Program-made: the position numbers and the translations under genes
The notes under the pieces: model-generated
Told to the model about the DNA's origin: nothing
Seen by the model: the letters and a program-made list of their open reading frames with translations, nothing else
Databases searched by the model: none
Shown here: in pieces, positions 12,969 to 63,869 of the stretch
Position numbering within the stretch: the stretch's first letter is position 1
How the letters are laid out: each line of letters begins with the position of its first letter
Assembly (NCBI RefSeq): GCF_016863295.1
Contig: NZ_BOOP01000001.1
Span: forward strand, 1 to 64,000
Direction: 5' to 3'
DNA length: 64,000 nt
Origin: Planotetraspora phitsanulokensis
GTDB taxonomy: Bacteria > Actinomycetota > Actinomycetes > Streptosporangiales > Streptosporangiaceae

Positions 12969-13234
12969 GGCACCCTTTCACATGGCGGGGGATCAGGCCG
13001 AAGGCGGCTTGTCCGGCGCGGGGGAGTCCGCCGGAGGTCAAAGCTTAGTGACCTTTCGGTGAAGCCGTTGCGTTCCAGGTTTACCGGATGTACACCTGAT
13101 GTCCAGCTTGACAAGGCTTTTCACCCGGTCATCCTCTTCGGATCCTTACCGAAATTTCACCATTTCTGCTCTGTGGAAGGGCCTTACCGGACGGTGAACG
13201 CCCGTAAACCCCCTCGCTCTCCTACGATTGCCGT

Positions 13235-14056: not shown

Positions 14057-14086
14057 GGACCGTCGGGCACCCAATACGCTCATGAC

Positions 14087-14857
14087 ATGGTCCGTCCTCC
14101 TGCTCCGCATCCGTCGGGCGCCACTCCGCCTCCCATCCCGCGTGACCTCGTGCCGCGCCATGTCGCGATCGTCATGGACGGCAACGGCCGCTGGGCCAAG
14201 GCCCGGGGGTTGCCGAGGACAGAGGGTCACAAGATGGGAGAGGCGTCGCTGTTCGACGTCATCGAGGGCGCGATCGAGATGGGCATCCCCTATCTGTCGA
14301 CGTACGCCTTCTCCACGGAGAACTGGAAGCGCTCGCCCGACGAGGTCCGCTTCCTCATGGGCTTCAACCGCGACGTGATCCGCCGCCGGCGTGACCAGTT
14401 GGACGAGATGGGGGTCCGGGTCCGGTGGGCCGGGCGTCCGGGGCGTCTGTGGAAGAGCGTGATCAAGGAGCTCGAGGACGCCGAGCGGAGGACCGTGGGC
14501 AACTCCACGCTGACCCTGCAGTTCTGCGTCAACTACGGCGGCCGGGCCGAGATCGTCGACGCGGCCGTGAAGCTCGCGCAGGACATCGCCGCGGGCAAGG
14601 TCAAGCCCGCCAAGGTGTCGGAGAAGATCTTCGCCCGGTATCTCGACGAGCCCGAGATCCCCGAGGTCGACCTCTTCCTCCGCTCGTCGGGCGAGCAGCG
14701 GACCTCGAACTTCATGTTGTGGCAGTCGGCCTACGCCGAGATGGTCTTCCTCAACCAGTTGTGGCCCGACTTCGACCGCCGGGACCTGTGGGAGGCCTGC
14801 GATATCTACGCGAAGCGCGACAGAAGGTACGGCGGGGCCGTCCCGAACGCGGTCTGA
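14087..14857 (+). CDS. uppS: Isoprenyl transferase (undecaprenyl diphosphate synthase family)
   Basis: 256-aa cis-prenyltransferase that extends allylic diphosphate with isopentenyl diphosphate to give the C50-C55 lipid carrier for cell-wall synthesis. Signature [19 protein letters not shown] contains the catalytic Asp31 and the Gly-Asn-Gly-Arg-Trp loop. The region [14 protein letters not shown], the stretch [11 protein letters not shown] and the C-terminal [20 protein letters not shown] are all diagnostic. The start is an ATG at 14087, 30 bp after recO. The lipid product also serves polymers like the one encoded by the divergent operon. Confidence 0.96.
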
Positions 14858-14862
14858 CCGCC

Positions 14863-14898
14863 TGCTGGAAGGACCGGGAGTGCTGGAAGGACCGGGAG
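14863..14898 (+). repeat. Perfect 18-bp tandem duplication after uppS
   Basis: The unit tgctggaaggaccgggag is present twice, at 14863-14880 and 14881-14898, starting six bases after the uppS stop codon. A third partial copy (gaccg) follows. It lies between the convergent uppS and CGNR genes and does not form an obvious terminator. Confidence 0.85.
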
Positions 14899-14948
14899 GA
14901 CCGTAAGCCGGAGGAGGACAGGGCGCGGGCCCGGGGCGGCCTTCGCGC

Positions 14949-15497
14949 TCAGGCTCGCCTGCGCGCCCGGTAGGCGGCGACGTGGATGCGGTTGCCGCAC
15001 GTGCGGCTGTCGCAGTAGACCCGGGACCGGTTGCGCGACTCGTCGACGAACACGTGGGAGCAGTCGGGCGCCGCGCAGGTGCGCAGCCGCTCCCACTCGT
15101 CCTCGACCAGCACGTGGGCGAGGGCCACGCCGCAGTCGGCGGCCAGGTGCTCGGCGACCGAGGCGCCGGGCGCGAAGTAGTGGACGTGCAGCGGGAAGCC
15201 GTCGTGCTCGGTGAGGCTCGGCGTGATCCGCGTGCGGCCGAGCAGCGTGTTGAGCCGGGAGATCGCCGTCGTGCGGTCCGGCGCCGTGAAGACGGCGTGG
15301 AAGGCCTGCCGGAGCTCCACCACCTCGGCGAGGTCCCGCGGGGTCAGGGCCGCCACCCCGCTCACCTGGCGGAGCCGTACGAATGCCTCCAGGTCCGCGA
15401 GGTCGGCCAGCCCGTCGCGGTCGCCGGCCTCGGGCGAGGTGTTGATCAAGTCGACCACGGTGGCCAGCGAGTACACCATGTCATGACTGAACGGCAC
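14949..15497 (-). CDS. CGNR zinc-finger / ABATE domain protein
   Basis: 182 aa. The C-terminus carries the zinc finger CAAPDCSHVFVDESRNRSRVYC with the CGNR motif in CDSRTCGNRIHVAAYRARR, a basic DNA-binding type end. The N-terminal region (LINTSPEAGDRDGLADLADLEAF...) is the helical ABATE-like domain (putative stress-induced transcription regulator). Such proteins are common uncharacterised regulators in actinobacteria. It is convergent with uppS and followed upstream by a Fur-family gene on the same strand 153 bp away. Function beyond probable transcription control is unknown. Confidence 0.85.
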   Translation of the reverse strand: MPFSHDMVYSLATVVDLINTSPEAGDRDGLADLADLEAFVRLRQVSGVAALTPRDLAEVVELRQAFHAVFTAPDRTTAISRLNTLLGRTRITPSLTEHDGFPLHVHYFAPGASVAEHLAADCGVALAHVLVEDEWERLRTCAAPDCSHVFVDESRNRSRVYCDSRTCGNRIHVAAYRARRRA

Positions 15498-50602: not shown

Positions 50603-51076
50603 TCAGACGAGGGTCTTGTCGAACACGTGCTCCCCGACCGTCTCGGGGTCGGCGGTCACGTCGAACAGCGGACGGTAGCCGCCCGCGAGATACAGGGCGA
50701 TCGCCTCGGGCTGGCGCGGACCCGTGCTCAGGACGACCCGCTGGTAGCCGCAGGCGGCCGCCTCACGTTCCAGCTCCCGGACGACGAGGCGGGCGAGCCC
50801 GCGGCGGCGGTGGCCGGGATGCGTCCAGATGCGCTTGAGCTCGGCCGTGGTCTCGTCGTAGCGGCGGAAGGCGCCGCCCGCCGTGGTCTCGCCGTTCTCG
50901 ACGAGGATCAGGAAGCCGCCGTCCGGCGGCGCGAAGTCGGAGTCGGGGAAGCGGGCCAGTTCGTCGTTGGGCCCGTAGCGGCGCTGGTACTCGATCGCGA
51001 GGTCGTCGAGTAGCGGGCGGAGGGCGGCGTCCCCGGGAGCGACCAGTCGGAACTCGTGCGTGTGCTCGATGGTCAT
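50603..51076 (-). CDS. GNAT-family N-acetyltransferase
   Basis: 157 aa from the ATG at 51076; the open frame extends to 51232 but without conserved sequence. The acetyl-CoA motif is HPGHRRRGLARLVVRELEREAAACGYQRVVLSTG, followed by PEAIALYLAGGYRPLFD. The N-terminal half (LRPLLDDLAIEYQRRYGPNDELARF) is typical of small GNATs of unknown substrate. Convergent with the membrane protein gene. Confidence 0.88.
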   Translation of the reverse strand: MTIEHTHEFRLVAPGDAALRPLLDDLAIEYQRRYGPNDELARFPDSDFAPPDGGFLILVENGETTAGGAFRRYDETTAELKRIWTHPGHRRRGLARLVVRELEREAAACGYQRVVLSTGPRQPEAIALYLAGGYRPLFDVTADPETVGEHVFDKTLV

Positions 51077-51298
51077 CTGCTCTCTCAATGGGGAGGGACG
51101 GGATCTTCCCGCCGACGGGGCGTCAGGGAGCCGCATCCTATTGACCTCGTGGTTCTCCGCCGCGGACCGGCCCCTGCCAGCGTGGTCGTCCGGGGGACCG
51201 AGGGTGTTCTGTGACAGAATTCGTCGCGTCATGCGCGCCTATCCGCTCTCTCACGGCTCGCGGAAAGTGTGACGGCTCACGCGTTCGGAGTTGGTCCC

Positions 51299-51940
51299 AT
51301 GAAGATCTCCGCCATCAAGGCGATGCTCGTCCTGTGCCTGGGGGGCGCGCTCGTGGCGGCGTTCGCATCGCCCGCTCTCGCCCACGACAGCCTGAAGAGC
51401 AGTTCACCCGCCAAGAACGCCGTGGTCTCCACCCTCGACCGGATCGAGCTGGAGTTCAGCGCGCACGTGACCTTCCCGGTCGTGATCCTCCACGACGCCG
51501 CCGGGCGCCGCTTCGAGTCCGGCAAGCCGCGTGCCGACGGGCCGAAGGTGACCCAGGACGTCGCCGGCCCGCTCCCGTCCGGGAGCTACGTCGTCGCGTG
51601 GCGGGTCGTCTCCTCCGACGGCCATCCCATCGAGGGGGAGATCCCCTTCACGGTGAAGGCCGCTTCCGGTGGGGCGGCGCCTTCGGCCGCCGCGGCTCCG
51701 CCGGCGGCGGGGGACACGGCAGGAGACACGGCGGGGGGCAAGGCGGCCGGGGACACGGGCTCGAACAATCCGCTGCTGCTCTGGGGCGGGTTCGCCCTGC
51801 TCGTGGTCGCCGGAGGCGCGGCCCTGTTCGGCCGCCGCAAGAAGCCCGAACATCCGGCGAGCCCCGACCACGCGGCGGGTCCCGGTCATTCGGGTCCCGA
51901 CCATTCGGCCGGCCCCGACCGTCCGGGGGACACGGCCTGA
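51299..51940 (+). CDS. CopC-domain copper-resistance/periplasmic copper-binding protein
   Basis: 213 aa from the ATG at 51299 with GGAG upstream. The signal peptide ends at SPALA, so the mature protein begins with His (HDSLKSSSPAKNAVV), the N-terminal Cu(II) ligand of CopC; the second conserved region SSDGHPIEGEIPFTV carries the Asp and His ligands. An Ala/Gly/Asp-rich linker, one membrane helix (NNPLLLWGGFALLVVAGGAALF) and a basic/His-rich tail follow, so the CopC domain is anchored outside the membrane. No CopD is present downstream. Probably delivers or buffers copper. Confidence 0.9.
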   Translation: MKISAIKAMLVLCLGGALVAAFASPALAHDSLKSSSPAKNAVVSTLDRIELEFSAHVTFPVVILHDAAGRRFESGKPRADGPKVTQDVAGPLPSGSYVVAWRVVSSDGHPIEGEIPFTVKAASGGAAPSAAAAPPAAGDTAGDTAGGKAAGDTGSNNPLLLWGGFALLVVAGGAALFGRRKKPEHPASPDHAAGPGHSGPDHSAGPDRPGDTA

Positions 51941-51955
51941 CCCCTGACCGCCCCG

Positions 51956-52113
51956 GCGTTCACCGCGGGAGCGGCGACGCCCGCGTTACCGCGGGAGCGG
52001 GGTCGCCCCGCGTTGACCGCGGGAGTGGGACGCCGCGTCGACCGCGGGAGCGGGGTCGCCCCGCGTTCAGCGCAGGAGTGGGGACCTCCGCTTTCACCGC
52101 GGGGTGGGAGCTT
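51956..52113. repeat. Array of about six imperfect 25-28 bp tandem repeats
   Basis: Units start gcgttcaccgcgggagcgg (51956), gcgttaccgcgggagcgg (51983), gcgttgaccgcgggagtgg (52010), gcgtcgaccgcgggagcgg (52035), gcgttcagcgcaggagtgg (52063) and gctttcaccgcggggtgg (52090). Each ends in a gtcgcccc- or gacgcc-like segment. The array starts 15 bp after the copC stop codon and no coding frame explains it. Confidence 0.85.
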
Positions 52114-52320
52114 CGCGCGGCGCGCCGCCTGGCCGTACCGACAGGCCCTCGACCGGAGGCAGAGGGGCCGGTGAGCCGCCGTAAGCCCGGCGATCGGCGA
52201 CCGGCTGACGTGCCTGCTCACCGGGCCCCTCCACAGCTCAGAACCGGTGCGAGAGCACGGAGGCCGTCGGCCCGGCACCCCGTCGCACTTGCTCCGAATC
52301 TGGACTGTCAGGCGCAGTTA

Positions 52321-52331
52321 ACATTGGATGT
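52321..52331. promoter_or_regulatory. Operator-like site A: ACATTGGATGT
   Basis: One mismatch from the palindrome ACATCSGATGT that recurs upstream of the fucD region; context taACATTGGATGTattgg matches the flanks of site D at 58576-58586 (aaACATCGGATGTattgg). It lies 434 bp upstream of the ThuA start codon. Confidence 0.6.
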
Positions 52332-52423
52332 ATTGGCCAGTCAATAGACGTCTCACGAGCCACCGTGTCAGCGGGACCGCTCCAAAAACGCGCCAGCGCC
52401 GCCGATCAGGCAGGATTTTTGTC

Positions 52424-52439
52424 GTTTCGAATTCGAAAC
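52424..52439. promoter_or_regulatory. Perfect 16-bp palindrome gtttcgaattcgaaac
   Basis: Self-complementary over 16 bases, just upstream of a second palindrome. The sequence is unlike its GC-rich surroundings and is a strong candidate protein-binding site of an unidentified regulator. Confidence 0.6.
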
Positions 52440-52440
52440 T

Positions 52441-52458
52441 CAGAGATCTCGATCTCTG
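52441..52458. promoter_or_regulatory. Palindrome cagagatc-tc-gatctctg
   Basis: Perfect 8-bp arms with a 2-bp centre, separated from the previous palindrome by one base and from site B (52461-52471) by two bases. Confidence 0.6.
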
Positions 52459-52460
52459 AC

Positions 52461-52471
52461 ACATCCGATGT
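52461..52471. promoter_or_regulatory. Operator-like site B: ACATCCGATGT
   Basis: Perfect 11-bp palindrome (ACATC-C-GATGT), identical in form to the sites before fucD. It lies 66 bp upstream of the candidate -35 at 52538. Confidence 0.65.
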
Positions 52472-52537
52472 ATGAAGATCGATAACGGCCATCGAGATCG
52501 GTGTCGGACATCAGCGGCTCGAGCGCTCCGACGAATG

Positions 52538-52566
52538 TTGACGCTTTCGTTTGGATGTGCGAATCT
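52538..52566 (+). promoter_or_regulatory. Candidate promoter for the ThuA gene
   Basis: TTGACG (52538-52543), 17-bp spacer, GAATCT (52561-52566). The -35 is good and the -10 weak. It is downstream of the operator cluster and 190 bp before the start codon. Confidence 0.45.
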
Positions 52567-52658
52567 TTCGTCGACGGCGACAAAAGTAAGCCGGTGGCCG
52601 TTGATTCTTTTTCACCAGGTGCGGCGGCGCGCTCCTCTTTCCCCAGAAGGAGTACCGC

Positions 52659-52742
52659 ATGTGCCCATGTGTGCCCGCCGCCGTCCTTCTCCCGGTACCC
52701 CGGCCGGCGCCGGTGCCGTCCCGTCTCTCGTCCACCGATTGA
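52659..52742 (+). CDS. 27-residue leader ORF ending just before the ThuA gene
   Basis: AAGGAG at good spacing precedes ATG 52659. The peptide is MCPCVPAAVLLPVPRPAPVP plus SRLSSTD, with a Cys-x-Cys start and a Pro-rich body. It ends at TGA 52740-52742; the ThuA ATG is at 52755, so its stop overlaps the ThuA ribosome-binding purines (gagaggg). Too small for coding statistics, but position and Shine-Dalgarno suggest a translated leader that could couple or attenuate ThuA translation. Confidence 0.5.
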   Translation: MCPCVPAAVLLPVPRPAPVPSRLSSTD

Positions 52743-52754
52743 GAGGGCCGGCTC

Positions 52755-54869
52755 ATGCGTGTGATCATCCGGACCACTCTCGCTCTTCTCGTCGCTGCTG
52801 CGGCCGTCCTGACCGCTCAGGCCGCCGCCCTCTCCGCCCCGCTGACCAAGATCCTCGTCTTCTCCAAGACGGCGGGCTTCCGGCACTCCTCCATCCCGAA
52901 CGGCATCGCGGCCATCCGGCAACTGGGTGCGGCCAACGGGTTCACGGTGGACGCCACCGAGGACGCGGCGGCGTTCACCACGGCGAACCTGGCGCAGTAC
53001 CAGGCCGTCGTCTGGTTGTCGACGACCGGTGACGTCCTCAACGCCGCGCAGCAGACGGCGTTCCAGTCCTACATCGCGTCGGGCGGCGGATACGTCGGCG
53101 TGCACGCGGCCGCGGACACCGAGTACGACTGGCCCTGGTACGGCGGCCTGGTCGGGGCCTGGTTCAACTCGCATCCGGCGACCCAGCAGGCGGTCGTCCG
53201 GGTCGAGGACCGGGCCAACGTGTCCACGTCGCATCTTCCGCAGGCCTGGACGCGAACCGACGAGTGGTACAACTACCGCACCAATCCGCGGGCGAACGTG
53301 AAGGTGCTGGCCGGCCTCGACGAGTCCTCTTACTCGGGCGGGTCCATGGGCGACCATCCCATCACCTGGTGCCACGACTACATGGGTGGCCGCTCCTGGT
53401 ACACCGGCCTCGGCCACACCGAGGAGTCCTACGCCGACCCCAACTTCACGAAGATGCTGCTCGGCGGCATCCAGATCGCCTCACGCGCCAGGCCGGCCGA
53501 CTGCCGGCCGGAGACCGGCTACACCGCGCTCTTCGACGGCACCCAGGCGAGCCTCGACCGCTGGCGGATGGCCGGGCCCGGCGGCTTCACGCTGGCCGAC
53601 GGCACGCTGACCTCCTTCGGCGGCATGGGGCTGCTCTGGTATCCGGTCACCACGTTCTCGAACTACTCCCTCAAGCTCGACTGGATGATGCCGGGCGACG
53701 ACAACGGCGGCGTCTTCATCGGCTTCCCCGACCCGCAGGGCGACCCGTGGAAGCCGGTCGACCAGGGGCACGAGATCCAGATCGACGCCAGCGACGCCGA
53801 TCCCACCCGTACCACCGGCAGCGTCTACAGCTTCAAGGCGCCGGACACCGCGCTGCGCGCCGCCGCGCTCAACCCGCCGGGATCCTGGAACACCTACGAG
53901 ATCGCCGTCCACGGCCAGCACGTGGAGATCTTCCTCAACGGCGTCAAGATCAACGACTACACCAGCACCCGGAACATCGCGTCCGGATACATCGGCGTGC
54001 AGAACGACGGCGACGGCGCCGACATCAACTACCGCAACATCCGGATCAAGGGGGACGGAGGGCCTCCCGCGGCCACGGACCTCGCCCAGGGGCGCCCGAC
54101 GGCGACCTCCAGCGTGCAGAGCGGCAGCACCCTGACCGGCTCGCTCGCGGTCGACGGCAACGCCTCCACCCGCTGGGGCAGCGCGTACGCGGACCCGCAG
54201 TGGATCTCGGTGGACCTCGGCGCCTCCTACGCGCTCAACCGGGTCCGCCTGAACTGGGAGGCGGCGTACGGCAGGGCGTACCAGATCCAGACGTCGCCGG
54301 ACAACGCCACCTGGACGACCGTCTACTCGACCACCACGGGCGACGGCGGCGTCGACGACGTCACCCTGTCCGGCACCGGGCGCTATGTCCGGGTCTACGG
54401 CACGCAGAGAGGGCTCACGCAGTACGGCTACTCGTTGTGGGACCTCAACGTGTACGGCACGCCGGCCGGAACCGGGCCGACCCTGCTCTCGCAGGGGCGG
54501 CCGACGGCCACCTCCAGCGTCGAGACCGGCAACGTGCTGGTCGGGGCGAACGCCGTCGACGGCAACACGGCGACGCGCTGGGGAAGCCTGTACTCCGATC
54601 CGCAGTGGATCTCGGTCGACCTCGGCTCGTCCCGTTCGATCAGCCGGGTGGTGCTGAACTGGGAGGCCGCGTACGGCAAGGCCTACCAGGTGCAGACGTC
54701 GCCGGACAACGCGACCTGGACGACCGTCTACTCCACCACGACGAGTGACGGCGGAGTCGACGACCTGAACGTCACCGGCACCGGGCGCTACGTGCGGGTC
54801 TACGGCACCCAGCGGGGGTTGGCGCCCTACGGCTACTCGCTCTGGGAGCTGCAGGTCTACGGCACCTGA
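52755..54869 (+). CDS. Secreted ThuA + DUF1080 (3-keto-disaccharide hydrolase) + two CBM32-like domains
   Basis: 704 aa. Signal peptide (IIRTTLALLVAAAAVLTAQAA). Residues about 30-245 are a ThuA domain (KILVFSKTAGFRHSSIPNGI, GGGYVGVHAAADTEYDWPWYG, DHPITW...GLGHTEESY). Residues about 253-437 are DUF1080 (GYTALFDGTQASLDRW, NGGVFIGFPDPQGDPW, GHEIQIDASD, NTYEIAVHGQHVEIFLNGV). Residues 442-704 are two discoidin-like/CBM32-type domains. ThuA is named for trehalose use, where disaccharides are oxidised at C3; DUF1080 members, as I recall, are 3-keto-glycoside hydrolases. The whole protein therefore suggests secreted processing of oxidised glycans. GAGAGGG precedes the ATG. A companion dehydrogenase gene follows. 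Confidence 0.88.
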   Translation: MRVIIRTTLALLVAAAAVLTAQAAALSAPLTKILVFSKTAGFRHSSIPNGIAAIRQLGAANGFTVDATEDAAAFTTANLAQYQAVVWLSTTGDVLNAAQQTAFQSYIASGGGYVGVHAAADTEYDWPWYGGLVGAWFNSHPATQQAVVRVEDRANVSTSHLPQAWTRTDEWYNYRTNPRANVKVLAGLDESSYSGGSMGDHPITWCHDYMGGRSWYTGLGHTEESYADPNFTKMLLGGIQIASRARPADCRPETGYTALFDGTQASLDRWRMAGPGGFTLADGTLTSFGGMGLLWYPVTTFSNYSLKLDWMMPGDDNGGVFIGFPDPQGDPWKPVDQGHEIQIDASDADPTRTTGSVYSFKAPDTALRAAALNPPGSWNTYEIAVHGQHVEIFLNGVKINDYTSTRNIASGYIGVQNDGDGADINYRNIRIKGDGGPPAATDLAQGRPTATSSVQSGSTLTGSLAVDGNASTRWGSAYADPQWISVDLGASYALNRVRLNWEAAYGRAYQIQTSPDNATWTTVYSTTTGDGGVDDVTLSGTGRYVRVYGTQRGLTQYGYSLWDLNVYGTPAGTGPTLLSQGRPTATSSVETGNVLVGANAVDGNTATRWGSLYSDPQWISVDLGSSRSISRVVLNWEAAYGKAYQVQTSPDNATWTTVYSTTTSDGGVDDLNVTGTGRYVRVYGTQRGLAPYGYSLWELQVYGT
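54077..54867 (+). repeat. Two tandem CBM32-like segments (copies 1 and 2)
   Basis: Copy 1 (about 54077-54462) and copy 2 (about 54480-54867) encode the ...GRPTATSS...DPQWISVDLG...LNWEAAYG...NATW... domain. Copy 1 is of subtype A (YALNRVRLNWEAAYGRAYQ) and copy 2 subtype B (RSISRVVLNWEAAYGKAYQ). The same A-B pair recurs in the next gene (57488-58277). Confidence 0.85.
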
Positions 54870-54897
54870 GCCCTCGCGACCCCCCGACAAGACGCCG

Positions 54898-54930
54898 GGG
54901 CTCCAGGTCTGCCGCAGACCTGGAGCCCCT
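54898..54930 (+). terminator. Long perfect hairpin between the ThuA and dehydrogenase genes
   Basis: Arms ggggctccaggtctg (54898-54912) and cagacctggagcccc (54916-54930) are perfect over 15 bp, loop ccg. It is 29 bp after the ThuA stop and 45 bp before the next start. No T-run, so it may be an attenuator or processing hairpin rather than a full terminator. Confidence 0.75.
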
Positions 54931-54974
54931 GTGAGCTCGACGCACATCCGCCTCCGCACCCCCCAGGAGACCTC

Positions 54975-57900
54975 GTGGTCGGTTTCGCGCGCCTTCGGAC
55001 AGCCGTCGGCGCCCTCATCCTCACGCTCGCGGCGACGGCGGTCGCGGGAGCCCCCGTCCCCGCCTCCGCCGCCCCCGCGGCACAGCCCCGGGCGGCCCTC
55101 GCTCCGCCTCCCACGAGCGGGTTCGAGAAGGTCAAGCTCGACGGCGGGCTCTCGATGGGCGAGCCCATCGAGTTGTCGGTCCTCCCCGACGGCAAGGTCC
55201 TCTACATCAACCGGGGCAGCAGCTCCGGCGGCGGCCAGGTACGCCTGTACAACCCCGTCACCAAGGCCACGACCGTGGCGCTGACGCTGCAGCTCGACGC
55301 CCGGTTCGAGGACGGGCTCATCGGCATCACGATCCACCCGCGGTTCGCCGCCAACCACTGGGTGTACCTCTTCTACTCGCCGAAGGTGACGCCGCTGGTC
55401 AACCGGATCTCCCGGTTCACCTTCAACACCGCGGCGGGCGTGCTGGACCCCGCCAGCGAGGACATGATCGTCGAGTGGCCGACCGAGCGTGACCTGTGCT
55501 GCCACTCGGCCGGCTCGATGACGTGGGACTCGAACGAGAACCTGTACTTCGCGGTGGGCGACAACACCAACTCCGGCGGCGACTCGGCGGGCATGGCGCC
55601 CATCGACGAGCGGCCGGCCAGCAACCCGCAGTACGACGCCCAGCGCACGGCGGGCAACACCAACGACCTGCGCGGGAAGATCAACCGGATCCACCCCGAG
55701 AACGACGGCACCTACACGATCCCGGCCGGCAACCTCTTCCCGCCGGGCACGGCGAAGACCCGGCCTGAGATCTACATCATGGGCGACCGCAACCCGTACC
55801 GGATCTGGGTCGACAAGAAGGCGAACAACACCCTCTACTGGGGCGAGGTCGGGCCCGACGCGGGCGCCACGATTCCCAACCGGGGACCGGCGGCCTACGA
55901 CGAGTTCAACCGGGCGACCGGCCCGGGCAACTACGGCTGGCCGTACTGCGGCGGCCCGAACGTCGCCTACAACGACTGGGACTTCGCGGCCAACGCCCCG
56001 CGCGGCTGGTTCCCCTGCGGCGGCACGACCGGCCCGGTGAACAACTCGGCCCGCAACACCGGCCTGCAGCAGCTTCCCCCCACCAAACCCTCGCTGGTGT
56101 GGGAGCAGCACGGCGGCAGCAAGGAGTGGCCCGCCCTCGACAACCCGGGCGGCTGCGGCTCGCCCAACCACGCCGAGGTCTACCACTACGACCCGAACCT
56201 GGCCTCGGACGTGAAGTGGCCCGCGTACTACGACAACAAGTGGATCATCTCCGAGTACTGCCGCAACTGGATCAAGGAGGTCCAGTTCGACAACGGAAAC
56301 CCCGCCACGGGGAACCCGACGGTCATCGAGCCGGTGCTCGCGGGGATGAACCTCGTCCACCCGATCGACATGGAGTTCGGGCCCGACGGATCGTTGTACC
56401 TGCTGGAGTACGGCAGCGGCTACTTCTCGGGCGCGGTGGACGCCGGACTCTACAAGATCAACTATGTCCAGGGCGGACGGTCGCCGGTCGCGGTGGCCAC
56501 GGCGAACAAGGACAACGGCCTGACGCCGCTCGCGGTGACGTTCTCCAGCGCGGGATCGTCCGATCCCGACGGCGACCCCATCACCTATGCCTGGGACTTC
56601 GACGACAACGGCACCATCGACTCCACGGCCGCCAACCCGTCGTTCACCTACACCACCAACGGCGACAAGCGGGCGCGTCTGACCGTACGGGATCCCGCCG
56701 GTCACACGGGCACGGCGGTGATCCCCGTCGTGGTCGGCAACAACCGGCCGGCGGTCACGCTGGCGGGCATCCCGGCGGGCGGCATGTGGAGCTGGGGCGA
56801 GAACCTCACCACGACCGCGAGCGCCACCGACCCGCAGGACGGCACGGTCGGCTGCGCCGACGTCGTCATCCGGGCGGCGCTGGGGCACCAGGAGCACGCC
56901 CACGAGGAGGGACAGGGAACGGGCTGCGGGTTCACCGTCAACACCGGCCCCGTGCACGCCGGTCCCGACGCCGTGCAGTTCTTCGTCCTGCGGGCCTCCT
57001 ACACCGACCGGGGCGCCCCCGGCACGGTCGCGCTGACAGGGGAGAAGGAGATCTCGGTCTGGCCGAAGCAGTGGCAGGCGGAGCACTTCGTCCAGCTCAA
57101 CGGCCCGAAGGTCGTCGACCAGGCCGCGGCGGAGGGCGGCAGGCGCCTCGGCGACATCCAGAGCGGGGAGTGGGTGCGGCACCACGCGGTGAGCCTGAAG
57201 GGCATCACCGGGGTGAAGGCCCGCGTGTCCTCGGCCAACGCCGGCGGCACCCTCTCCTTCCGCTACGACTCGCCGACGGGTCCCGAGGTCGCGCGCCTCG
57301 CGGTCTCCGGCACGGGAGGCTGGGACAACTACGTCGAGCTGACCGCGCCGGTGACGAGGCCGGACGACGGCACGCACGACCTCTACCTGGTGTTCACCGG
57401 CAACAACACCGGCGCGAACGCGCTGTTCGACGTCGACAGCTACACATTCGTCGGCCCCGGCGTCAGCACGCCGCCGACCACCTCGAGCGACCTCGCTCAG
57501 GGCCGTCCGACGGCGACCTCCAGCGTGGAGCCCGACGCCGGCCGGGTGGGGTCGCTGGCGGTCGACGGCGACGCGGCGACGCGGTGGAGCAGCGCGTACA
57601 GCGACCCGCAGTGGATCTCGGTCGACCTCGGGGCCACCTACGCGCTCAACCGGGTGCGGCTGAACTGGGAGGCGGCGTACGGCAGGGCCTACCAGGTGCA
57701 GGCGTCCACGGACAACGCCACCTGGACGAACGTGTACTCCACCACCAGCGGCGACGGCGGTGTGGACGACCTCGTGGTCTCCGGCACCGGGCGGTACGTC
57801 CGGGTCTACGGCACGCAACGCGGGCTCACGCAGTACGGCTACTCGTTGTGGGACCTCAACGTCTACGGCACGCCCGTCTCCGGCGGAGGCACGCTGCTGT

Positions 57901-58280
57901 CGTCCGGCCGCCCGACGGCCACGTCCAGCGTGGAGCCGGACAACGGGCGGGTGGGGTCACTGGCGGTCGACGGCGACGCGGCGACGCGGTGGAGCAGCGC
58001 GTACAGCGACCCGCAGTGGATCTCGGTGGATCTGGGCGCGTCCCGTTCGATCAGCCGGGTGCGGCTGAACTGGGAGGCGGCGTACGGCAAGGCCTACCAG
58101 ATCCAGACATCTCCCGATAACGCCACGTGGACGAACGTGTACTCCACCACCACCGGTGACGGCGGTGTGGACGACCTGGTCGTCTCCGGCACCGGGCGGT
58201 ACGTCCGGATGTACGGCACGCAACGCGGGCTCACGCAGTACGGCTACTCGCTGTGGGAGTTCGAGGTCTACGGCACCTGA
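54975..58280 (+). CDS. Secreted PQQ-type sugar dehydrogenase with PKD, CBM6-like and two CBM32-like domains
   Basis: 1101 aa, GTG start at 54975 after AGGAGA. Signal peptide (LRTAVGALILTLAATAVAGA). Residues about 48-495 form a glucose/sorbosone dehydrogenase-like six-bladed propeller: ELSVLPDGKVLYINRG, DLCCHSAGSMTWDSNENLYFAVGD with the expected catalytic His near 177, MGDRNPYRIWVD, and HPIDMEFGPDGSLYLLEYG. A PKD domain follows (about 503-590, GSSDPDGDPITYAWDFDDNG), then a CBM6-like region (about 690-830) and two CBM32-like domains (about 839-1101). Outside the cell it would oxidise sugars using PQQ. Adjacent ThuA/DUF1080 gene suggests joint action. Confidence 0.88.
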   Translation: MVGFARLRTAVGALILTLAATAVAGAPVPASAAPAAQPRAALAPPPTSGFEKVKLDGGLSMGEPIELSVLPDGKVLYINRGSSSGGGQVRLYNPVTKATTVALTLQLDARFEDGLIGITIHPRFAANHWVYLFYSPKVTPLVNRISRFTFNTAAGVLDPASEDMIVEWPTERDLCCHSAGSMTWDSNENLYFAVGDNTNSGGDSAGMAPIDERPASNPQYDAQRTAGNTNDLRGKINRIHPENDGTYTIPAGNLFPPGTAKTRPEIYIMGDRNPYRIWVDKKANNTLYWGEVGPDAGATIPNRGPAAYDEFNRATGPGNYGWPYCGGPNVAYNDWDFAANAPRGWFPCGGTTGPVNNSARNTGLQQLPPTKPSLVWEQHGGSKEWPALDNPGGCGSPNHAEVYHYDPNLASDVKWPAYYDNKWIISEYCRNWIKEVQFDNGNPATGNPTVIEPVLAGMNLVHPIDMEFGPDGSLYLLEYGSGYFSGAVDAGLYKINYVQGGRSPVAVATANKDNGLTPLAVTFSSAGSSDPDGDPITYAWDFDDNGTIDSTAANPSFTYTTNGDKRARLTVRDPAGHTGTAVIPVVVGNNRPAVTLAGIPAGGMWSWGENLTTTASATDPQDGTVGCADVVIRAALGHQEHAHEEGQGTGCGFTVNTGPVHAGPDAVQFFVLRASYTDRGAPGTVALTGEKEISVWPKQWQAEHFVQLNGPKVVDQAAAEGGRRLGDIQSGEWVRHHAVSLKGITGVKARVSSANAGGTLSFRYDSPTGPEVARLAVSGTGGWDNYVELTAPVTRPDDGTHDLYLVFTGNNTGANALFDVDSYTFVGPGVSTPPTTSSDLAQGRPTATSSVEPDAGRVGSLAVDGDAATRWSSAYSDPQWISVDLGATYALNRVRLNWEAAYGRAYQVQASTDNATWTNVYSTTSGDGGVDDLVVSGTGRYVRVYGTQRGLTQYGYSLWDLNVYGTPVSGGGTLLSSGRPTATSSVEPDNGRVGSLAVDGDAATRWSSAYSDPQWISVDLGASRSISRVRLNWEAAYGKAYQIQTSPDNATWTNVYSTTTGDGGVDDLVVSGTGRYVRMYGTQRGLTQYGYSLWEFEVYGT
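57488..58277 (+). repeat. Two tandem CBM32-like segments (copies 3 and 4), 68-bp identity
   Basis: Copy 3 (about 57488-57870) is subtype A and copy 4 (about 57892-58277) subtype B, mirroring the pair in the ThuA gene. Within them, 57555-57622 and 57960-58027 are identical over 68 bases. This high identity suggests recent duplication or gene conversion. Confidence 0.85.
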
Positions 58281-58284
58281 ACGG

Positions 58285-58323
58285 CGACCGGGCCGGAGTC
58301 CCTCGCGGACCCCGGCCCGGTCG
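58285..58323 (+). terminator. Terminator after the dehydrogenase gene
   Basis: 17-bp arms cgaccgggccggagtcc (58285-58301) and ggaccccggcccggtcg (58307-58323) with one mismatch, loop ctcgc. It begins four bases after the stop codon. Confidence 0.8.
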
Positions 58324-58458
58324 TGCGGCGCACGAGGAAACGCCAGTGCGAGGACGGCGGCCCGCCCGTGGAAGGCCAGCGGCGCGGCCCGCTCGGGGAA
58401 GGCAGCTCCCGGGTCCGGTGGCACGGTCCGCGCGACCCTGCCGGGCTCCACTCCAAGA

Positions 58459-58586
58459 AGATCCGATGTCCGCCTGACTCTTCCGCCTAACATGGCCGCT
58501 CGCCGTCGAGTTATCCGATGTATTCGTCCCGGAAACCTCTTGACTTGCACGCGACCAGCGGACATTCTTGGCGAAACATCGGATGT
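58459..58586. promoter_or_regulatory. Operator-like sites E, C and D before fucD: AGATCCGATGT, TTATCCGATGT, ACATCGGATGT
   Basis: Site E at 58459-58469 and site C at 58511-58521 differ from ACATCCGATGT by one and two bases; site D at 58576-58586 is a perfect palindrome. A promoter-like pair lies between C and D: TTGACT (58540-58545), 17-bp spacer, CATTCT (58563-58568). Site D would cover the start site, C would lie just upstream of -35: a classic repression layout. Confidence 0.65.
58540..58568 (+). promoter_or_regulatory. Candidate promoter for the fucD operon
   Basis: TTGACT at 58540-58545 and CATTCT at 58563-58568, 17 bp apart, directly followed by operator-like site D (58576-58586). Confidence 0.55.
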
Positions 58587-58598
58587 ATTGGAGGCGTT

Positions 58599-58880
58599 GT
58601 GAAGCTGCTGCCGGTTGGTCCGGGTGGCCTCGCCCATCCACGCTCGGCCACGTCCATCGGCTTCTCGCAGCTCGATCACCGCCGTGCGGCGAGTTCTCCG
58701 GTGCCGGTGGCACCGGCCGCCCGCCCTGCTAGCCTCGTCGATCATGCGGAAGCCCTCGTGGGTGCCTCTTTCGGGGAGAATAACCCAAAGGCGTCCTTCG
58801 GGATGAAGGTGACGGCGTCCATTGGTCGGATGGATCGCTCCCACGAGTCCGTCGCCGTCCGGACGGCGGGACGGGCGTGA
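58599..58880 (+). CDS. Possible small ORF or remnant gene coupled to fucD
   Basis: 93 codons from GTG 58599, preceded by TGGAGG at 58589-58594 with good spacing and lying just downstream of the candidate promoter and site D. It ends in a GTGA overlap with the fucD GTG (58877-58880). The start [10 protein letters not shown] resembles the beginning of fumarylacetoacetate-hydrolase-family proteins (MKLLRxGPxG), which act in fuconate breakdown, but the rest does not. Third-position GC is clearly lower than for real genes here. It may be the scar of a deleted FAH gene or a leader ORF. Confidence 0.35.
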
Positions 58881-60163
58881 AGATCACCTCCCTGGAGACG
58901 TACGACGTCCGCTTCCCCACGTCGCGGGAGCGGGACGGCTCCGACGCCATGAACCCCGATCCCGACTACTCCGCCGCCTACGTGGTGCTCCGGACCGAGG
59001 ACGGTCACGAGGGGCACGGGTTCGCCTTCACGATCGGCCGCGGCAACGACGTGCAGACGGCCGCGATCAGAGCCCTCGAGCCCTACGTGGTGGGGCGGGA
59101 CTGCTCCGACATCGGCGCGCTGTCGCGCGGCATGGTGGGCGACTCGCAGCTGCGCTGGCTCGGCCCGGAGAAGGGCGTCATGCACATGGCGATCTCCGCG
59201 GTCGTCAACGCCCTGTGGGACCTCAAGGCCAAGCGGGAGGGCAAGCCGCTCTGGCTGCTGCTGGGCGAGTTGTCGCCCGAGGAGATCGTCGAGCTCGTCG
59301 ACTTCCGTTACATCACCGACGCGCTCACCCCCGGCGAGGCGCTGGAGATCCTCCGCAAGGCCGAGCCCGGCCGGCAGGAGCGGATCGCCCGTCTCCAGGC
59401 GGACGGCTATCCCGCCTACGCGACCTCGCCCGGCTGGCTCGGCTACGACGACGACAAGCTGCGCCGCCTGTGCAAGGAGGCCCTGGCCGACGGCTTCACA
59501 CAGATCAAGCTGAAGGTCGGCGCCGACCTCGACGACGACATCCGCCGCATGCGGGTCGCCCGCGAGGTGTGCGGCGTCGGATTCCCCATCGCCGTCGACG
59601 CCAACCAGCGCTGGGACGTGGACACGGCCGTCCAGTGGGTCGAGGCGCTGGCCGAGTTCGACCCGTGGTGGGTCGAGGAGCCGACCAGCCCCGACGACGT
59701 CCTCGGTCACGCCGCCATCGCGCGCAGGATCGCGCCCATCCCGGTCGCCACCGGCGAGCACGTGCAGAACCGCATGGTCTTCAAGCAGCTGCTCCAGGCG
59801 GGCGCGGTCTCCTACCTCCAGCTCGACGCGGCCAGGGTCGGCGGGGTGAACGAGAACCTCGCGATCCTGCTCCTCGCCGCCAAGTTCGGCGTGCCGGTCT
59901 GCCCGCACGCCGGGGGAGTCGGCCTGTGCGAACTGGTCCAGCACCTGGCGATGTTCGACTATGTCGCGGTGAGCGGGTCCATGGAGGGCCGGGTCATCGA
60001 GTACGTCGACCATCTGCACGAGCACTTCGTGGACCCCGTCGTCATCCGGGGCGGCAGATACGCCGCGCCCGCCGCGCCGGGCTTCGGCTCCACGATGCGC
60101 CCCGAGTCGATCGCCGAATTCTCCTACCCCGACGGTCCCGTCTGGAGGGGAGCCGATGGGTGA
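58877..60163 (+). CDS. L-fuconate dehydratase
   Basis: 428-aa enolase-superfamily (mandelate racemase type) enzyme removing water from L-fuconate to give 2-keto-3-deoxy-L-fuconate. Catalytic and metal residues are all present: Lys211 and Lys213 (IKLKVG), metal ligands Asp241 (VDANQRWD), Glu267 (WWVEEPT) and Glu294 (TGEHVQN), and His344 ([11 protein letters not shown]). These sit at a constant offset of 7 from residues I recall for Xanthomonas FucD (K218, K220, D248, E274, E301, H351). The segment [22 protein letters not shown] is also FucD-like. Starts with GTG and has three operator-like sites upstream. The ABC transporter genes follow, 153 bp downstream. Confidence 0.93.
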
Positions 60164-60316
60164 GTTCGGCGAGTCGTGTTCTCCGGCTGGACGCGACCCC
60201 GCACGGTCACGCCGGCCGGCCTGCTTGTCGGTGCCATCCAGGCACCTGACCGGCCGCGGGCGAGGACACCTCGTGTCCCCGCCTTCTACCCCCCACGTCA
60301 TGAAAGGCCAGATGGC

Positions 60317-61363
60317 ATGAGACATTTCCTCAGCGCGGCGGGCGTCGCCGCCCTCGCGCTCGCGCTCGCCGCATGCGGCTCGACCTCCGACACCCCGGCG
60401 TCCTCAGGCGGCGGCTCGACCGCGGCCGCGGGCGGCAAGATCGGCGTCGACTTCCCCCGCGCCGACTCCGACTTCTGGAACTCCTACAACAAGTACGTCC
60501 CGGAGATGGCCAAGGAGCTCGGCGTCGACCTGATGCCGCCGACCAACTCGCAGAACGACATCGCCAAGGTCGTGGCGAACACCCAGGCGCTCGTCAGCCA
60601 GGGTGCCAAGGCCATCGTGATGGCTCCGCAGGACACCGGCGCGATCGCCTCGACCCTGCAGTCGCTCGACAGCAAGAAGATCCCCGTCGTCTCGGTGGAC
60701 ACCCGGCCGGACACCGGCAAGGTCTACATGGTCGTCCGCGCCGACAACCGGGCGTACGGCCAGAAGGCGTGCGAGTTCCTCGGCGACAAGCTCGGCGGCA
60801 AGGGCAAGATCGTCGAGCTCATGGGCGCCCTTTCCTCGATCAACGGCCGTGACCGCGCCGAGGCGTTCCGCGAGTGCATGAAGACCAAGTTCCCCGGGAT
60901 CACCGTCTTCGAGGAGCCCACGGAGTGGGACGGCACCAAGGCCGCGTCCATGCTCCAGACCCGCCTCGAGCAGAACCCGGACATCAAGGGCATCTACATG
61001 CACGCGGGCGGTGTGCACCTGGCCCCGACCCTGCAGGTGCTGAAGGCCAAGAACCTGATCGTCCCGCCGACGGACCCCAAGCACATCTTCGTCATCTCCA
61101 ACGACGGCATCCCGCAGGAGTTCGCCGCGATCCGTGACGGCTCGATCGACGCCACCGTCTCGCAGCCGGCCGACCTGTACGCCAAGTACGCGCTCTTCTA
61201 CGCCAAGGCCGCGGTCGAGGGCAAGACCTTCCAGCCCGGCCCGACGGACCACGACAGCACGATCATCCAGCTGCCCAACGGCCTCGAGGACCAGCTTCCG
61301 GCTCCGCTCGTGACCAAGGACAACGTGGACGACCCCGCGCTCTGGGGCAACCAGGTCAAGTAA
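60317..61363 (+). CDS. Sugar ABC transporter substrate-binding lipoprotein
   Basis: 348 aa from the ATG at 60317. Lipoprotein signal LALALAACGS (Cys20). Mature region is a type I periplasmic-binding protein of the ribose/xylose group: KIGVDFPRADSDFWNSYNKYVPEMAKELGVDL, GAKAIVMAPQDTGAIASTL, IPVVSVDTRPD, and ATVSQPADLYAKYALFYAKAA. The final codon overlaps the ATPase ATG by one base (TAATG). By context the ligand is likely a sugar feeding fuconate dehydratase, such as L-fucose. Confidence 0.92.
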   Translation: MRHFLSAAGVAALALALAACGSTSDTPASSGGGSTAAAGGKIGVDFPRADSDFWNSYNKYVPEMAKELGVDLMPPTNSQNDIAKVVANTQALVSQGAKAIVMAPQDTGAIASTLQSLDSKKIPVVSVDTRPDTGKVYMVVRADNRAYGQKACEFLGDKLGGKGKIVELMGALSSINGRDRAEAFRECMKTKFPGITVFEEPTEWDGTKAASMLQTRLEQNPDIKGIYMHAGGVHLAPTLQVLKAKNLIVPPTDPKHIFVISNDGIPQEFAAIRDGSIDATVSQPADLYAKYALFYAKAAVEGKTFQPGPTDHDSTIIQLPNGLEDQLPAPLVTKDNVDDPALWGNQVK

Positions 61364-62859
61364 TGACAGTTACTGAACCGGCGGCGGTCGAAGCGCGTGG
61401 CATCACCAAGCGCTTCGGCCCCACCGTCGCCCTCAACGACGCCGGAATCGTGATCACCCCCGGAGAGACCCACGCGCTGGTGGGCCGGAACGGCGCGGGC
61501 AAGTCGACCCTCGTCTCGATCCTGACGGGGCTCCAGCGCGCCGACCTCGGTGAGGTGCTCTTCGCGGGCGAGCCGGCGCCGCCGCTGACCGACAGGGACG
61601 CCTGGCGGCGCCGTGTCGCGTGTGTGTACCAGAAGTCGACGATCATCCCCTCCCTGACCGTCGCCGAGAACCTCTTCATCAACCGGCAGACCGAGCGCGG
61701 CCCGATCAACTGGCGCGCCCTGCGCGCCCGCGCCCGGCAACTGCTCGACCAGTACGGCGTGGCGGTGGACGCCGACTCCCTCGCGGGAGATCTCAACGTC
61801 GAGGAACGGCAACTGGTGGAGATCGCCAGGGCGCTGTCCTTCGGCGCGAGGTTCATCATCCTCGACGAGCCCACGGCCCAGCTCGACGGCCCGGCCATCG
61901 AGCGGCTCTTCGAGCGGATGCGCGACCTGCGGAGCCAGGGCGTGACGATGATGTTCATCTCGCACCACCTGGAGGAGGTCTACCAGGTCTGCCAGAGCGT
62001 CACGGTCTTCCGCGACGCCCGGCACGTCGTCACCGCAGCGGTGGCCGATCTCCCGCACGACGAGCTGGTCAAGGCGATGACCGGCGAGGAGACCCAGGCG
62101 TACGAGTCGAAGGCCCGGGAGATCGGCGACACGGCGAAGGTCGTGCTCTCCGCGTCCGGACTGCGGCTGAAGGACCGTTACGAGGACATCGACCTCGCCG
62201 TGCGCTCGGGGGAGATCGTCGGGCTGGCGGGCTCCGGCAGCAGCGGGAAGGTCGGCCTGGCGGAGACGCTGGTGGGCCTGCGCAAGCCGGACGGCGGCGA
62301 CGTCACGATCAACGGAACGGCCGTCCGCCCCGGAGACGTGTCCGCCGCGCTGAAGGCGGGCCTCGGGTTCGTCCCGCAGGACCGCCACCACGAGGGCTTC
62401 GTCCCGTTGTTGTCGATCGCGGAGAACGCGACCATGCCCATCGCGCACAAGCTGGGCAGGTTCGGCACGATCTCCTCCGAGCGGCGCCGGGACAGGGCCA
62501 CGACGATGATCAAGGATCTCGACATCAAGACCACCGGGCCCGACCAGCCGGTGGGAGACCTGTCCGGCGGCAACGCGCAGAAGGTCGTGCTCGCCCGCGC
62601 GCTGGCGGACAACCCGGTCGCGCTCGTCGTGATCAACCCGACCGCCGGCGTCGACGTCAAGGCCAAGCAGTCCCTGCTGGGTGCGGTCGAGGACGCGACG
62701 GAGAGCGGAACGGGCGTCCTGCTGGTCTCCGACGAGCTGGACGACCTGCGGATCTGCGACCGGGTCCTGGTGATGTTCCACGGCAGGGTGGTCAAGGACG
62801 TGCCGCGAGGCTGGAGTGAGAACGACCTCGTGGCGGCAATGGAAGGTATCGACTCATGA
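61363..62859 (+). CDS. Sugar ABC transporter ATP-binding protein (RbsA/XylG type) with degenerate second domain
   Basis: 498-aa double-ABC ATPase. Domain 1 has Walker A GRNGAGKST (41-49), signature-like NVEERQLVEIARAL, and Walker B FIILDEPTAQLD. Domain 2 has a degenerate P-loop (GSGSSGKVGLAETL, as in the family) but also an altered Walker B: LVVINPTAGVDV, where the usual DEP is INP. Signature LSGGNAQKVVLARAL is retained. The intact first domain should drive transport. It overlaps the substrate-binding gene (TAATG) and the permease gene (ATGA, 62856-62859). Confidence 0.92.
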   Translation: MTVTEPAAVEARGITKRFGPTVALNDAGIVITPGETHALVGRNGAGKSTLVSILTGLQRADLGEVLFAGEPAPPLTDRDAWRRRVACVYQKSTIIPSLTVAENLFINRQTERGPINWRALRARARQLLDQYGVAVDADSLAGDLNVEERQLVEIARALSFGARFIILDEPTAQLDGPAIERLFERMRDLRSQGVTMMFISHHLEEVYQVCQSVTVFRDARHVVTAAVADLPHDELVKAMTGEETQAYESKAREIGDTAKVVLSASGLRLKDRYEDIDLAVRSGEIVGLAGSGSSGKVGLAETLVGLRKPDGGDVTINGTAVRPGDVSAALKAGLGFVPQDRHHEGFVPLLSIAENATMPIAHKLGRFGTISSERRRDRATTMIKDLDIKTTGPDQPVGDLSGGNAQKVVLARALADNPVALVVINPTAGVDVKAKQSLLGAVEDATESGTGVLLVSDELDDLRICDRVLVMFHGRVVKDVPRGWSENDLVAAMEGIDS

Positions 62860-63869
62860 CCGAATCGGCCGTGCCCGACTCCCTGGCAGTCGGGTCACGC
62901 GGGGTGGGCTTGCGACTCGGCAGGTTCCGGGACCTCACGCTGGTGCCGGTGATCGTCCTGCTGCTCGTCGTGGGCGCGATCATCGACCCGGTCTTCCTGA
63001 CGACCGGCAACCTGACCAACGTGCTCCAGCAGCAGTCGGCGCTCGCCCTCGTGGTGCTCGCCGAGGCGCTGATCCTCATCGCCGGGAAGTTCGACCTGTC
63101 GCTGGAGTCCACAGTCGGTCTGGCTCCGGCCCTCGCGGTGATGCTGGTCGTCCCGACGACGGCCGGCGGCTTCGGCATCGAGCTCCCCGTGGCGCTGGCG
63201 ATCCCGTTGTGCCTGCTGATCGGCGCCGCGGTCGGCGCCTTCAACGGCTTCCTCATCCTGCGCTTCCAGTTGTCGGCGTTCATCGTCACGCTGGCGATGC
63301 TGATCGTCGTGCGCGGTCTCCAGACCGGCATCACCGGAGGCAAGAGCCTCTTCGCCCTGCCGCAGTCGTTCCTTTATCTCGGCAGCGCCACCTGGCTCGG
63401 CGTCCCGGCGGCCATCTGGATCACCGCCGTGCTCTTCGTCGGCGGCATCGTCGCGCTCCGCTATTTCCGGGTGGGCCGCTCGTTGTACGCGATCGGCGGC
63501 AACGCCGACGCGGCCAGGGCGGCGGGCATCCGGGTCGAGCGGGTGACCTGGGTGGTCTTCGTGATCGCCGGCACGCTGGCGGCCCTCGCGGGCCTGCTGG
63601 AGACCGGACGGCTCGGCGGCATCAGCGCCAACCAGGGCAACGGCTGGATCTTCATGGTCTTCGCCGCGGCCGTGATCGGCGGGGTCAGCATGGACGGCGG
63701 GAAGGGCACGATCCTCGGCGCCCTGACCGGTGTGCTGGTCATCGGCCTGGTGGAGAACATCCTCACACTCAAGGGTGTCCCCGGCGAGTGGAAGCAGCTC
63801 GTCTACGGCGGCATCATCCTGGTGGCGCTCATGATCAGTCGCCTGGCCGGAGGCAAGGCGCAAGATTGA
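62856..63869 (+). CDS. Sugar ABC transporter permease (RbsC type)
   Basis: 337 aa, ATG overlapping the ATPase stop. About eight to ten hydrophobic segments (LTLVPVIVLLLVVGAIIDPVF, SALALVVLAEALILIAGKFDLS, PVALAIPLCLLIGAAVGAFNGF, etc.) and the BPD_transp_2 motif GGNADAARAAGIRVERVTWVVFVIAGTLAALAGLL. Single permease forming a homodimer, as in ribose/xylose importers. End of the operon, followed by a terminator. Confidence 0.93.
   Translation: MTESAVPDSLAVGSRGVGLRLGRFRDLTLVPVIVLLLVVGAIIDPVFLTTGNLTNVLQQQSALALVVLAEALILIAGKFDLSLESTVGLAPALAVMLVVPTTAGGFGIELPVALAIPLCLLIGAAVGAFNGFLILRFQLSAFIVTLAMLIVVRGLQTGITGGKSLFALPQSFLYLGSATWLGVPAAIWITAVLFVGGIVALRYFRVGRSLYAIGGNADAARAAGIRVERVTWVVFVIAGTLAALAGLLETGRLGGISANQGNGWIFMVFAAAVIGGVSMDGGKGTILGALTGVLVIGLVENILTLKGVPGEWKQLVYGGIILVALMISRLAGGKAQD

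Follow-up and report, generated by a model that had tools for sequence, protein, structure and literature searches.

We analyzed the first 64,000 nucleotides (the window) of contig NZ_BOOP01000001.1 of Planotetraspora phitsanulokensis, whose genome comprises 9.17 Mb. It contains two adjacent genes for secreted modular proteins, one joining a ThuA and a DUF1080 domain to two CBM32-like modules, the other joining a GSDH-type propeller to PKD, CBM6, and two further CBM32-like modules. Judging from the sequences, we propose with moderate confidence, as the most economical reading, that the pair acts outside the cell as a polymer-tethered couple, which would oxidize a glycan and then cleave it. The pair is probably a new extracellular, polymer-tethered version of the known 3-keto-glycoside route, although its gene arrangement is common and is nothing new in itself.

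In the proposed mechanism, the CBM32 and CBM6 modules would hold both proteins on one glycan, probably fucosylated and perhaps from a fungal wall. The GSDH propeller, with pyrroloquinoline quinone (PQQ) from the surroundings, would oxidize a ring hydroxyl of a pyranose residue, at C3 if the DUF1080 partner acts like its characterized relatives, and would pass the electrons to some carrier. DUF1080 and ThuA would hydrolyze or eliminate the weakened glycosidic bond, and L-fucose would be freed by a GH95-like enzyme whose gene lies elsewhere in the genome. The ABC importer beside the pair would import the sugar, and L-fuconate dehydratase (FucD) would pass it to the L-fucose pathway; the remaining genes of this pathway apparently lie at another locus.

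Two secreted proteins encoded as a pair

Both open reading frames are present on the plus strand at the positions given in Table 1, and Pfam agrees with the domains that a preliminary description of this DNA had assigned to two adjoining secreted proteins. The genes are 105 bp apart, and each product begins with a Sec-type signal sequence (judged by eye). The first protein matches ThuA (PF06283; E = 2.6e-81, 273.3 to 277 bits vs a Pfam cut-off of 33.4) and 3keto-disac_hyd/DUF1080 (PF06439; E = 2.5e-38, 132.5 to 136 bits vs a gathering cut-off of 26.8). The second matches GSDH (PF07995; E = 4.9e-26, 92.2 bits vs a Pfam cut-off of 25), PKD_4 (E = 2.1e-15), CBM_6 (E = 2.9e-27), and two F5/8-type C domains. 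The best-matching named loci belong to three Planotetraspora species, with 96% identity across 408 residues, and two of these three loci are intact, which rules out a frame or assembly artifact. In Planotetraspora silvatica (L084), the GSDH gene (12032-15024) has a frame break close to its last CBM32.

We surveyed the best 80 of at least 583 confirmed ThuA-DUF1080 matches in a species-level genome collection (named actinobacterial loci). A second sample comprised 16 intact ThuA-DUF1080 genes from the genomes of relatives, a 17th with a broken frame (L078) not being counted; the two samples share at least four genomes. Each of the 16 shares its locus with a separate GSDH-PKD-CBM6 gene. In the larger survey, a separate GSDH gene was found in 69 of the 80 loci, directly adjacent in 68 of them with gaps below 100 bp. 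The GSDH gene came first in 55 paired loci and the ThuA gene in 13; in the remaining one, the partner lay on the opposite strand at 3.6 kb. Counts of 16/16 and 69/80 rule out chance adjacency. Since 69 of the 80 loci carry it, the split pair is a common form and not the less familiar arrangement that the preliminary description had taken it for; among the actinobacterial loci surveyed, it is the usual one, though not obligatory. In three of the eleven loci without a GSDH gene (L110, L128, and L158), the contig starts so close by that the partner may have been cut away; L110 retains a CBM6 piece at that start.

The same families also occur as fusions. The genome itself encodes a 1,338-residue ThuA-F5/8C-GSDH-PKD-DUF1080 frame (contig C24), ThuA-GSDH proteins (contigs C59 and C65), and, on C59, a second split pair without DUF1080. 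Micromonospora pattaloongensis (L147) has a ThuA-GSDH-PKD-CBM6-...-DUF1080 fusion, Paenibacillus cellulosilyticus (L174) has ThuA-GSDH-PKD-CBM6, and Hymenobacter has a ThuA-DUF1080 protein. A plasmid of the archaeon Natronococcus (L173) carries DUF1080-GSDH and AP_endonuc_2-DUF1080-DUF1080 fusions, their genes about 2.5 kb apart. Redox domains appear in Runella (GSDH-PKD-cytochrome c-CBM6) and in the archaeon Haladaptatus (ThuA-GSDH-cupredoxin). Fusions therefore link the GSDH, ThuA, and DUF1080 families pairwise across several bacterial and archaeal lineages. Because cytochrome c and cupredoxin are fused to GSDH relatives, these architectures suggest that the propeller hands electrons on, and their presence on two distant relatives favors oxidation followed by cleavage.

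One locus pairs ThuA-DUF1080 with another dehydrogenase. Proteins of the Gfo/Idh/MocA family are a dehydrogenase type of known 3-keto routes. At L113, in Virgisporangium aliadipatigenens, the neighbors of a ThuA-DUF1080 gene that lacks a GSDH partner are a Gfo/Idh/MocA oxidoreductase gene on one side and an AP_endonuc_2 gene on the other, and a sugar-type ABC ATPase and a binding protein precede the three. Here Gfo/Idh/MocA occupies the usual place of GSDH, a swap seen in this single case.

Conserved residues

Conservation in ThuA-DUF1080 was counted over 70 aligned sequences. In the ThuA stretch, 35 polar positions, including H44, H117, D121, H140, H201, and H221, vary in no more than one of these sequences; the DUF1080 stretch also has 35 such positions, with E340, Q342, W378, and R427 kept in all 70. 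The E-x-Q of DUF1080 is kept in 12 of 12 sequences of a wider family alignment, and the family motifs are retained.

Conservation in the propeller was counted over the 69 GSDH partners. H177, R272, N273, G293, and D295 are kept in all of them, and P294 in 68. A profile alignment places H177 at the His of the HQSG motif of sGDH and R272-N273 at the RN of GHRNP. The catalytic residues of sGDH are named as His144, Arg228, and Asn229 (PMC6881810; articles are cited here by PMC identifier). Directly before the catalytic His, C175-C176 is likewise kept in 69 of 69 partners and in archaeal and Paenibacillus relatives; the Cys pair is missing in an Asd-like paralogue in the same genome (contig C23), in Runella, and in one fused ThuA-GSDH protein (L073). 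As a side observation, this vicinal Cys-Cys-His recalls eight-blade quinoproteins, in which a vicinal disulfide lies over PQQ.

Carbohydrate-binding modules

The CBM32-like tandem of the GSDH protein is 81% identical to that of the ThuA protein, and the best PDB matches of the tandems are DD1/DD2 of a Paenibacillus chitosanase/glucanase. CBM32 is borne by 16 of the 69 paired ThuA proteins, and by the GSDH of the same locus in 10 of those 16. Where ThuA has no CBM32, none of the 53 loci has a CBM32-bearing GSDH; the CBM32 tags of the two partners go together. Module identity averages 77.3% between the two proteins of one genome (34 comparisons) and 73.6% between genera at the same position (132 comparisons). 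The same-genome partner is the closer one for three of four modules in the window, three of four in Herbidospora (one tie), two of two in Sphaerisporangium sp. TRM90804, and one of four in Acrocarpospora. It is closer for no module of three Catellatospora or of Sphaerisporangium corydalis, with one tie, at a rounded 75%, in C. methionotrophica.

Neighboring genes and the likely substrate

Eight window proteins around the pair, spanning 50603-63866, were scanned for domains. Downstream of the pair lie genes for FucD and a sugar importer (Table 1), and the match of FucD to 2HNE covers residues 3-423 of 428. The fuconate and ABC genes of the preliminary description are thus real (653 bits to 2HNE; Pfam) and at most putatively co-transcribed with the pair, since 596 bp separate the pair from FucD.

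Table 1. Positions of the pair, its domains and residues, and the downstream genes in the window
Feature	Position	Strand	Remarks
Secreted ThuA-DUF1080-CBM32-CBM32 protein, 704 aa, start ATG 52755	52755..54869	+	proposed cleaving partner
ThuA domain	52848..53474	+	profile match
DUF1080 / 3keto-disac_hyd domain	53517..54050	+	profile match
Two CBM32-like modules, ThuA protein	54075..54866	+	Pfam F5/8-type C
Secreted GSDH-PKD-CBM6-CBM32-CBM32 protein, 1101 aa, start GTG 54975	54975..58280	+	proposed oxidizing partner
GSDH propeller region (query region)	55116..56474	+	Pfam best stretch 55161-55949; profile match to sGDH
C175-C176-H177	55497..55505	+	His aligned with His of sGDH HQSG (His144)
R272-N273	55788..55793	+	aligned with RN of sGDH GHRNP (Arg228-Asn229)
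PKD domain	56481..56723	+	Pfam
CBM6 module	57075..57452	+	Pfam
Two CBM32-like modules, GSDH protein	57459..58277	+	Pfam F5/8-type C
L-fuconate dehydratase (FucD), one of two genome copies	58877..60163	+	653 bits to PDB 2HNE
Sugar substrate-binding lipoprotein, likely start ATG 60317	60317..61363	+	Pfam; longest frame starts 60176
ABC sugar importer ATPase, two ABC domains	61363..62859	+	domain scan
ABC sugar importer permease	62856..63869	+	domain scan

FucD occurs in six of the 80 loci (L082-L084, L095, L101, and L136). L134 was rejected as a seventh; the start of its sequence is unlike FucD, and it is another enolase-type gene. Query matches place a GH95-like gene in 10 of the 80 loci (L086, L089-L095, L098, and L101). 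The GH95 catalytic-domain Pfam model scores 27.6 to 59 bits at L086, L092, L101, and L065 (Herbidospora), vs a cut-off of 27, and the GH95 match at L136 is strong (234 bits, Pfam). Because the pair at L136, which has both FucD and GH95, is only 66% identical to the window pair, the fucose link recurs with a more distant pair. Pfam also identified GH99 in each of the three proteins examined from L086, L094, and L098. In the genome of the window, a GH95-like gene lies elsewhere, on contig C35 (73% identity). Contig C23 groups AKR, Amidohydro_2, SDR, and FAA hydrolase genes with the second FucD, a set which we take to be the oxidative L-fucose pathway.

This gene context suggests an L-fucose glycan as the target. 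We would further guess at a fungal-wall glycan that contains both fucose and mannose, because the CBM32 modules are near the chitosan-binding DD1/DD2 and because mucoran of Mucoromycota is described as containing glucuronic acid, L-fucose, and mannose (PMC10481521).

Several other features of these loci were recorded. GH95-like, GH99, second GSDH, and lone ThuA proteins (L065, L086, L094, L098, and L101) have a common C-terminal DUF7910 (nine proteins scanned, some below the cut-off), as if the whole secreted set bore one tag. A convergent gene for an F5/8C protein lies at 63982-65673, mostly past the window end; a same-genus version is 97% identical, and the 564 residues scanned of that version hold no further Pfam domain. 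A myo-inositol-1-phosphate synthase-family gene occurs in 14 of the 80 loci (L112, L115, L119, L121, L125, L128, L132, L137, L138, L145, L146, L152, L157, and L159) and on contig C59 of the same genome (L019, L029). Thirteen of the 14 match TatD queries and 10 match AP_endonuc_2 queries (Pfam for C59 and L112 only); this group resembles an ebo-type cluster.

Weighing oxidation and cleavage against other explanations

The preliminary description had proposed that the dehydrogenase oxidizes a residue and that ThuA/DUF1080 cleaves it. Adjacency, the fusions and their redox domains, the conserved motifs, the catalytic His/Arg/Asn, the matched CBM32 modules, and the swap at L113 all support this proposal. 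It is supported in part: several points below weigh against it, the main weakness being that the known enzymes of the fold oxidize C1 of free sugars and that the PQQ ligands differ.

We take Arg406 of sGDH to be a ligand of the PQQ carboxylates. Two other residues, Lys377 and Arg408, are described as PQQ contacts (PMC6881789). In a comparison that uses sequence alignment alone, Lys377, Arg406, and Arg408 align with C429, H462, and I464 of the window protein, and the other aligned rows shown likewise have no Lys or Arg at these positions. The PQQ-binding residues, which the preliminary description had treated as decisive, are therefore a mixed case: the catalytic His, Arg, and Asn are kept in all 69 partners, while the equivalents of the other three are not. 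PqqC was not found in the genome by a model whose cut-off is exceeded in 6 of 198 genomes from the phylum, and PqqE gave two matches only, both below cut-off. With no PqqC, PQQ would have to come from outside; PQQ users without PQQ synthesis are described, and E. coli takes PQQ up (PMC6881789, PMC6881810). The window GSDH also stays below the subfamily model TIGR03606, with 59 bits vs a cut-off of 434.55.

The GSDH profile additionally matches Hedgehog-interacting protein in the PDB, a non-enzymatic propeller. Together with the lost carboxylate ligands, the invariant vicinal Cys pair beside the catalytic His, and the missing PqqC, this match would fit a propeller that is not a PQQ enzyme at all and either uses another cofactor or a metal or is not a redox protein. 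We consider such a propeller improbable: the catalytic His, the Arg-Asn dyad, and the Gly-Pro motif are kept, GSDH relatives are fused to cytochrome c and cupredoxin, and dependence on external PQQ has precedents (PMC6881789, PMC6881810).

Oxidation at C3 by this propeller would be new, since the known enzymes of the GSDH fold oxidize C1 of free sugars. To our knowledge, there is no known case of C3 oxidation by this fold. sGDH-type enzymes are described as oxidizing C1, and the AA12 enzyme TrAA12 as preferring L-fucose (PMC6881810). The GSDH might accordingly act like sGDH and AA12 enzymes and oxidize C1 of free reducing sugars (e.g. L-fucose released by the GH95-like enzyme) to lactones; the ABC importer would then bring in L-fuconate or its lactone for FucD, and ThuA-DUF1080 would act separately on the glycan. 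The eight scanned window proteins, which include FucD and neither a fucose dehydrogenase nor a lactonase, agree with such a scheme. The idea that GSDH is the missing fucose dehydrogenase is nevertheless weakened by the AKR, Amidohydro_2, SDR, FAA hydrolase, and second FucD genes already present on C23, and we keep it as a rival that is rather unlikely. Moreover, FucD is missing from the flanking DNA examined at 63 of the 69 paired loci (the enolase-type gene of L134 not counted), and the GSDH-DUF1080 fusions would be left unexplained. Membership of the window protein in AA12 is itself unsupported, as none of the 43 PDB profile matches at E <= 1 bears the name pyranose dehydrogenase or AA12 (the presence of AA12 chains in that set was not checked).

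The cleaving half has a competing interpretation as well. A DUF1080 protein of Thermogutta is described as having direct endo-glucanase activity and hydrolyzing xanthan and beta-glucans (PMC10881899), and Agd3 includes a domain, discussed under the heading of its carbohydrate-binding module, that is similar to a ThuA-like protein (PMC7229062). DUF1080 could then be an ordinary GH16-like endo-glycosidase, with ThuA as a binding domain and GSDH as a helper that oxidizes the products. We give this little credence, as the 35 polar positions of ThuA that vary in no more than one of 70 sequences exceed the needs of a mere binding domain, DUF1080 genes elsewhere accompany 3-keto chemistry (PMC9007349), and at L113 the DUF1080 gene stands with Gfo/Idh/MocA and AP_endonuc_2.

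Returning to the oxidize-and-cleave couple, its distribution is imperfect. Eight of the 80 loci (L094, L096, L097, L099, L100, L102, L113, and L145) have no GSDH within at least 8.5 kb of flank on each side, and six of these eight belong to the 21 loci nearest the window type. A GMC oxidoreductase lies 0.85 kb off on the other strand at L099 (Pfam), and aldo/keto-reductase-like genes flank both sides at L100 (by eye); at L096, L097, and L102, no sugar dehydrogenase was recognized nearby (by eye). For the Hymenobacter ThuA-DUF1080 and Runella GSDH-cytochrome c genes, a gene table that is itself incomplete shows no partner within 6 kb. The 596 bp before FucD count here too, as does one same-genus genome whose locus leaves no space for FucD and whose only FucD lies elsewhere. 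Since the paired loci are mutually related, the co-occurrence of CBM32 does not amount to 69 independent events. Concerted evolution of the modules, considered as proof of a common target, is borne out in part and is marked in some genera only.

Comparison with known systems

DUF1080 proteins have been tied to 3-keto-glycoside use. In the systems of BT2157 and of Caulobacter LacABC with CCNA_01705, a dehydrogenase oxidizes the sugar to a 3-keto product, for which the proposed cleaving enzyme is a DUF1080 protein, the Caulobacter system being periplasmic (PMC9007349). The pair would share the combination of a dehydrogenase with a DUF1080 cleaver. It differs from the pathways described there in that its dehydrogenase would be a GSDH propeller instead of LacABC or Gfo/Idh/MocA, neither of which is beside the DUF1080 gene among the eight window proteins scanned. 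In addition, both proteins look secreted and bear several carbohydrate-binding modules, and ThuA is fused to DUF1080.

A second likeness is to the O- and C-glycoside beta-eliminases AtOGE and PuCGE, for which C3 oxidation precedes breakage of the bond by elimination; AtOGE is described as a barrel with a Mn2+ site and no sequence relation to PuCGE (PMC10628242). No gene of either type is among the eight window proteins scanned, and AP_endonuc_2 genes accompany some relatives. With sGDH, Asd, and AA12 enzymes, the window GSDH shares the six-blade propeller and the catalytic His and Arg-Asn (PF07995 for sGDH and Asd); it differs in its PQQ-carboxylate ligands, the Cys-Cys before the His, the modular CBM tail, and the ThuA-DUF1080 partner. 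The C-terminal CBM32 tandems resemble their best PDB match, DD1-DD2 of the Paenibacillus sp. IK-5 chitosanase (2RVA, 4ZZ5), whose modules are described as chitosan-binding (PMC12154041). The pair was not found described in open-license literature on ThuA, DUF1080, PQQ sugar dehydrogenases, 3-keto cleavage, and AA12, among the titles and abstract openings of the matches listed.

Implications

Beyond the pair itself, we tentatively suggest that the Cys-Cys-His clade of the GSDH fold, in bacteria and archaea, may be an extracellular glycoside 3-dehydrogenase that acts on polymer-bound sugars, with ThuA-DUF1080 as its cleaving half and PQQ supplied by neighbors. The conserved pairs, the fusions, and the Cys-Cys-His signature ease the design of a direct biochemical test. 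If the couple acts as we propose, the regiochemistry and cofactor binding of the propeller dehydrogenase would be new, and on the wider suggestion the clade would represent a route of glycan breakage apart from glycoside hydrolases, lyases, and lytic polysaccharide monooxygenases. Many actinobacteria would then bear a secreted, CBM-tethered system for cleaving 3-keto-glycosides, with a propeller as its dehydrogenase.

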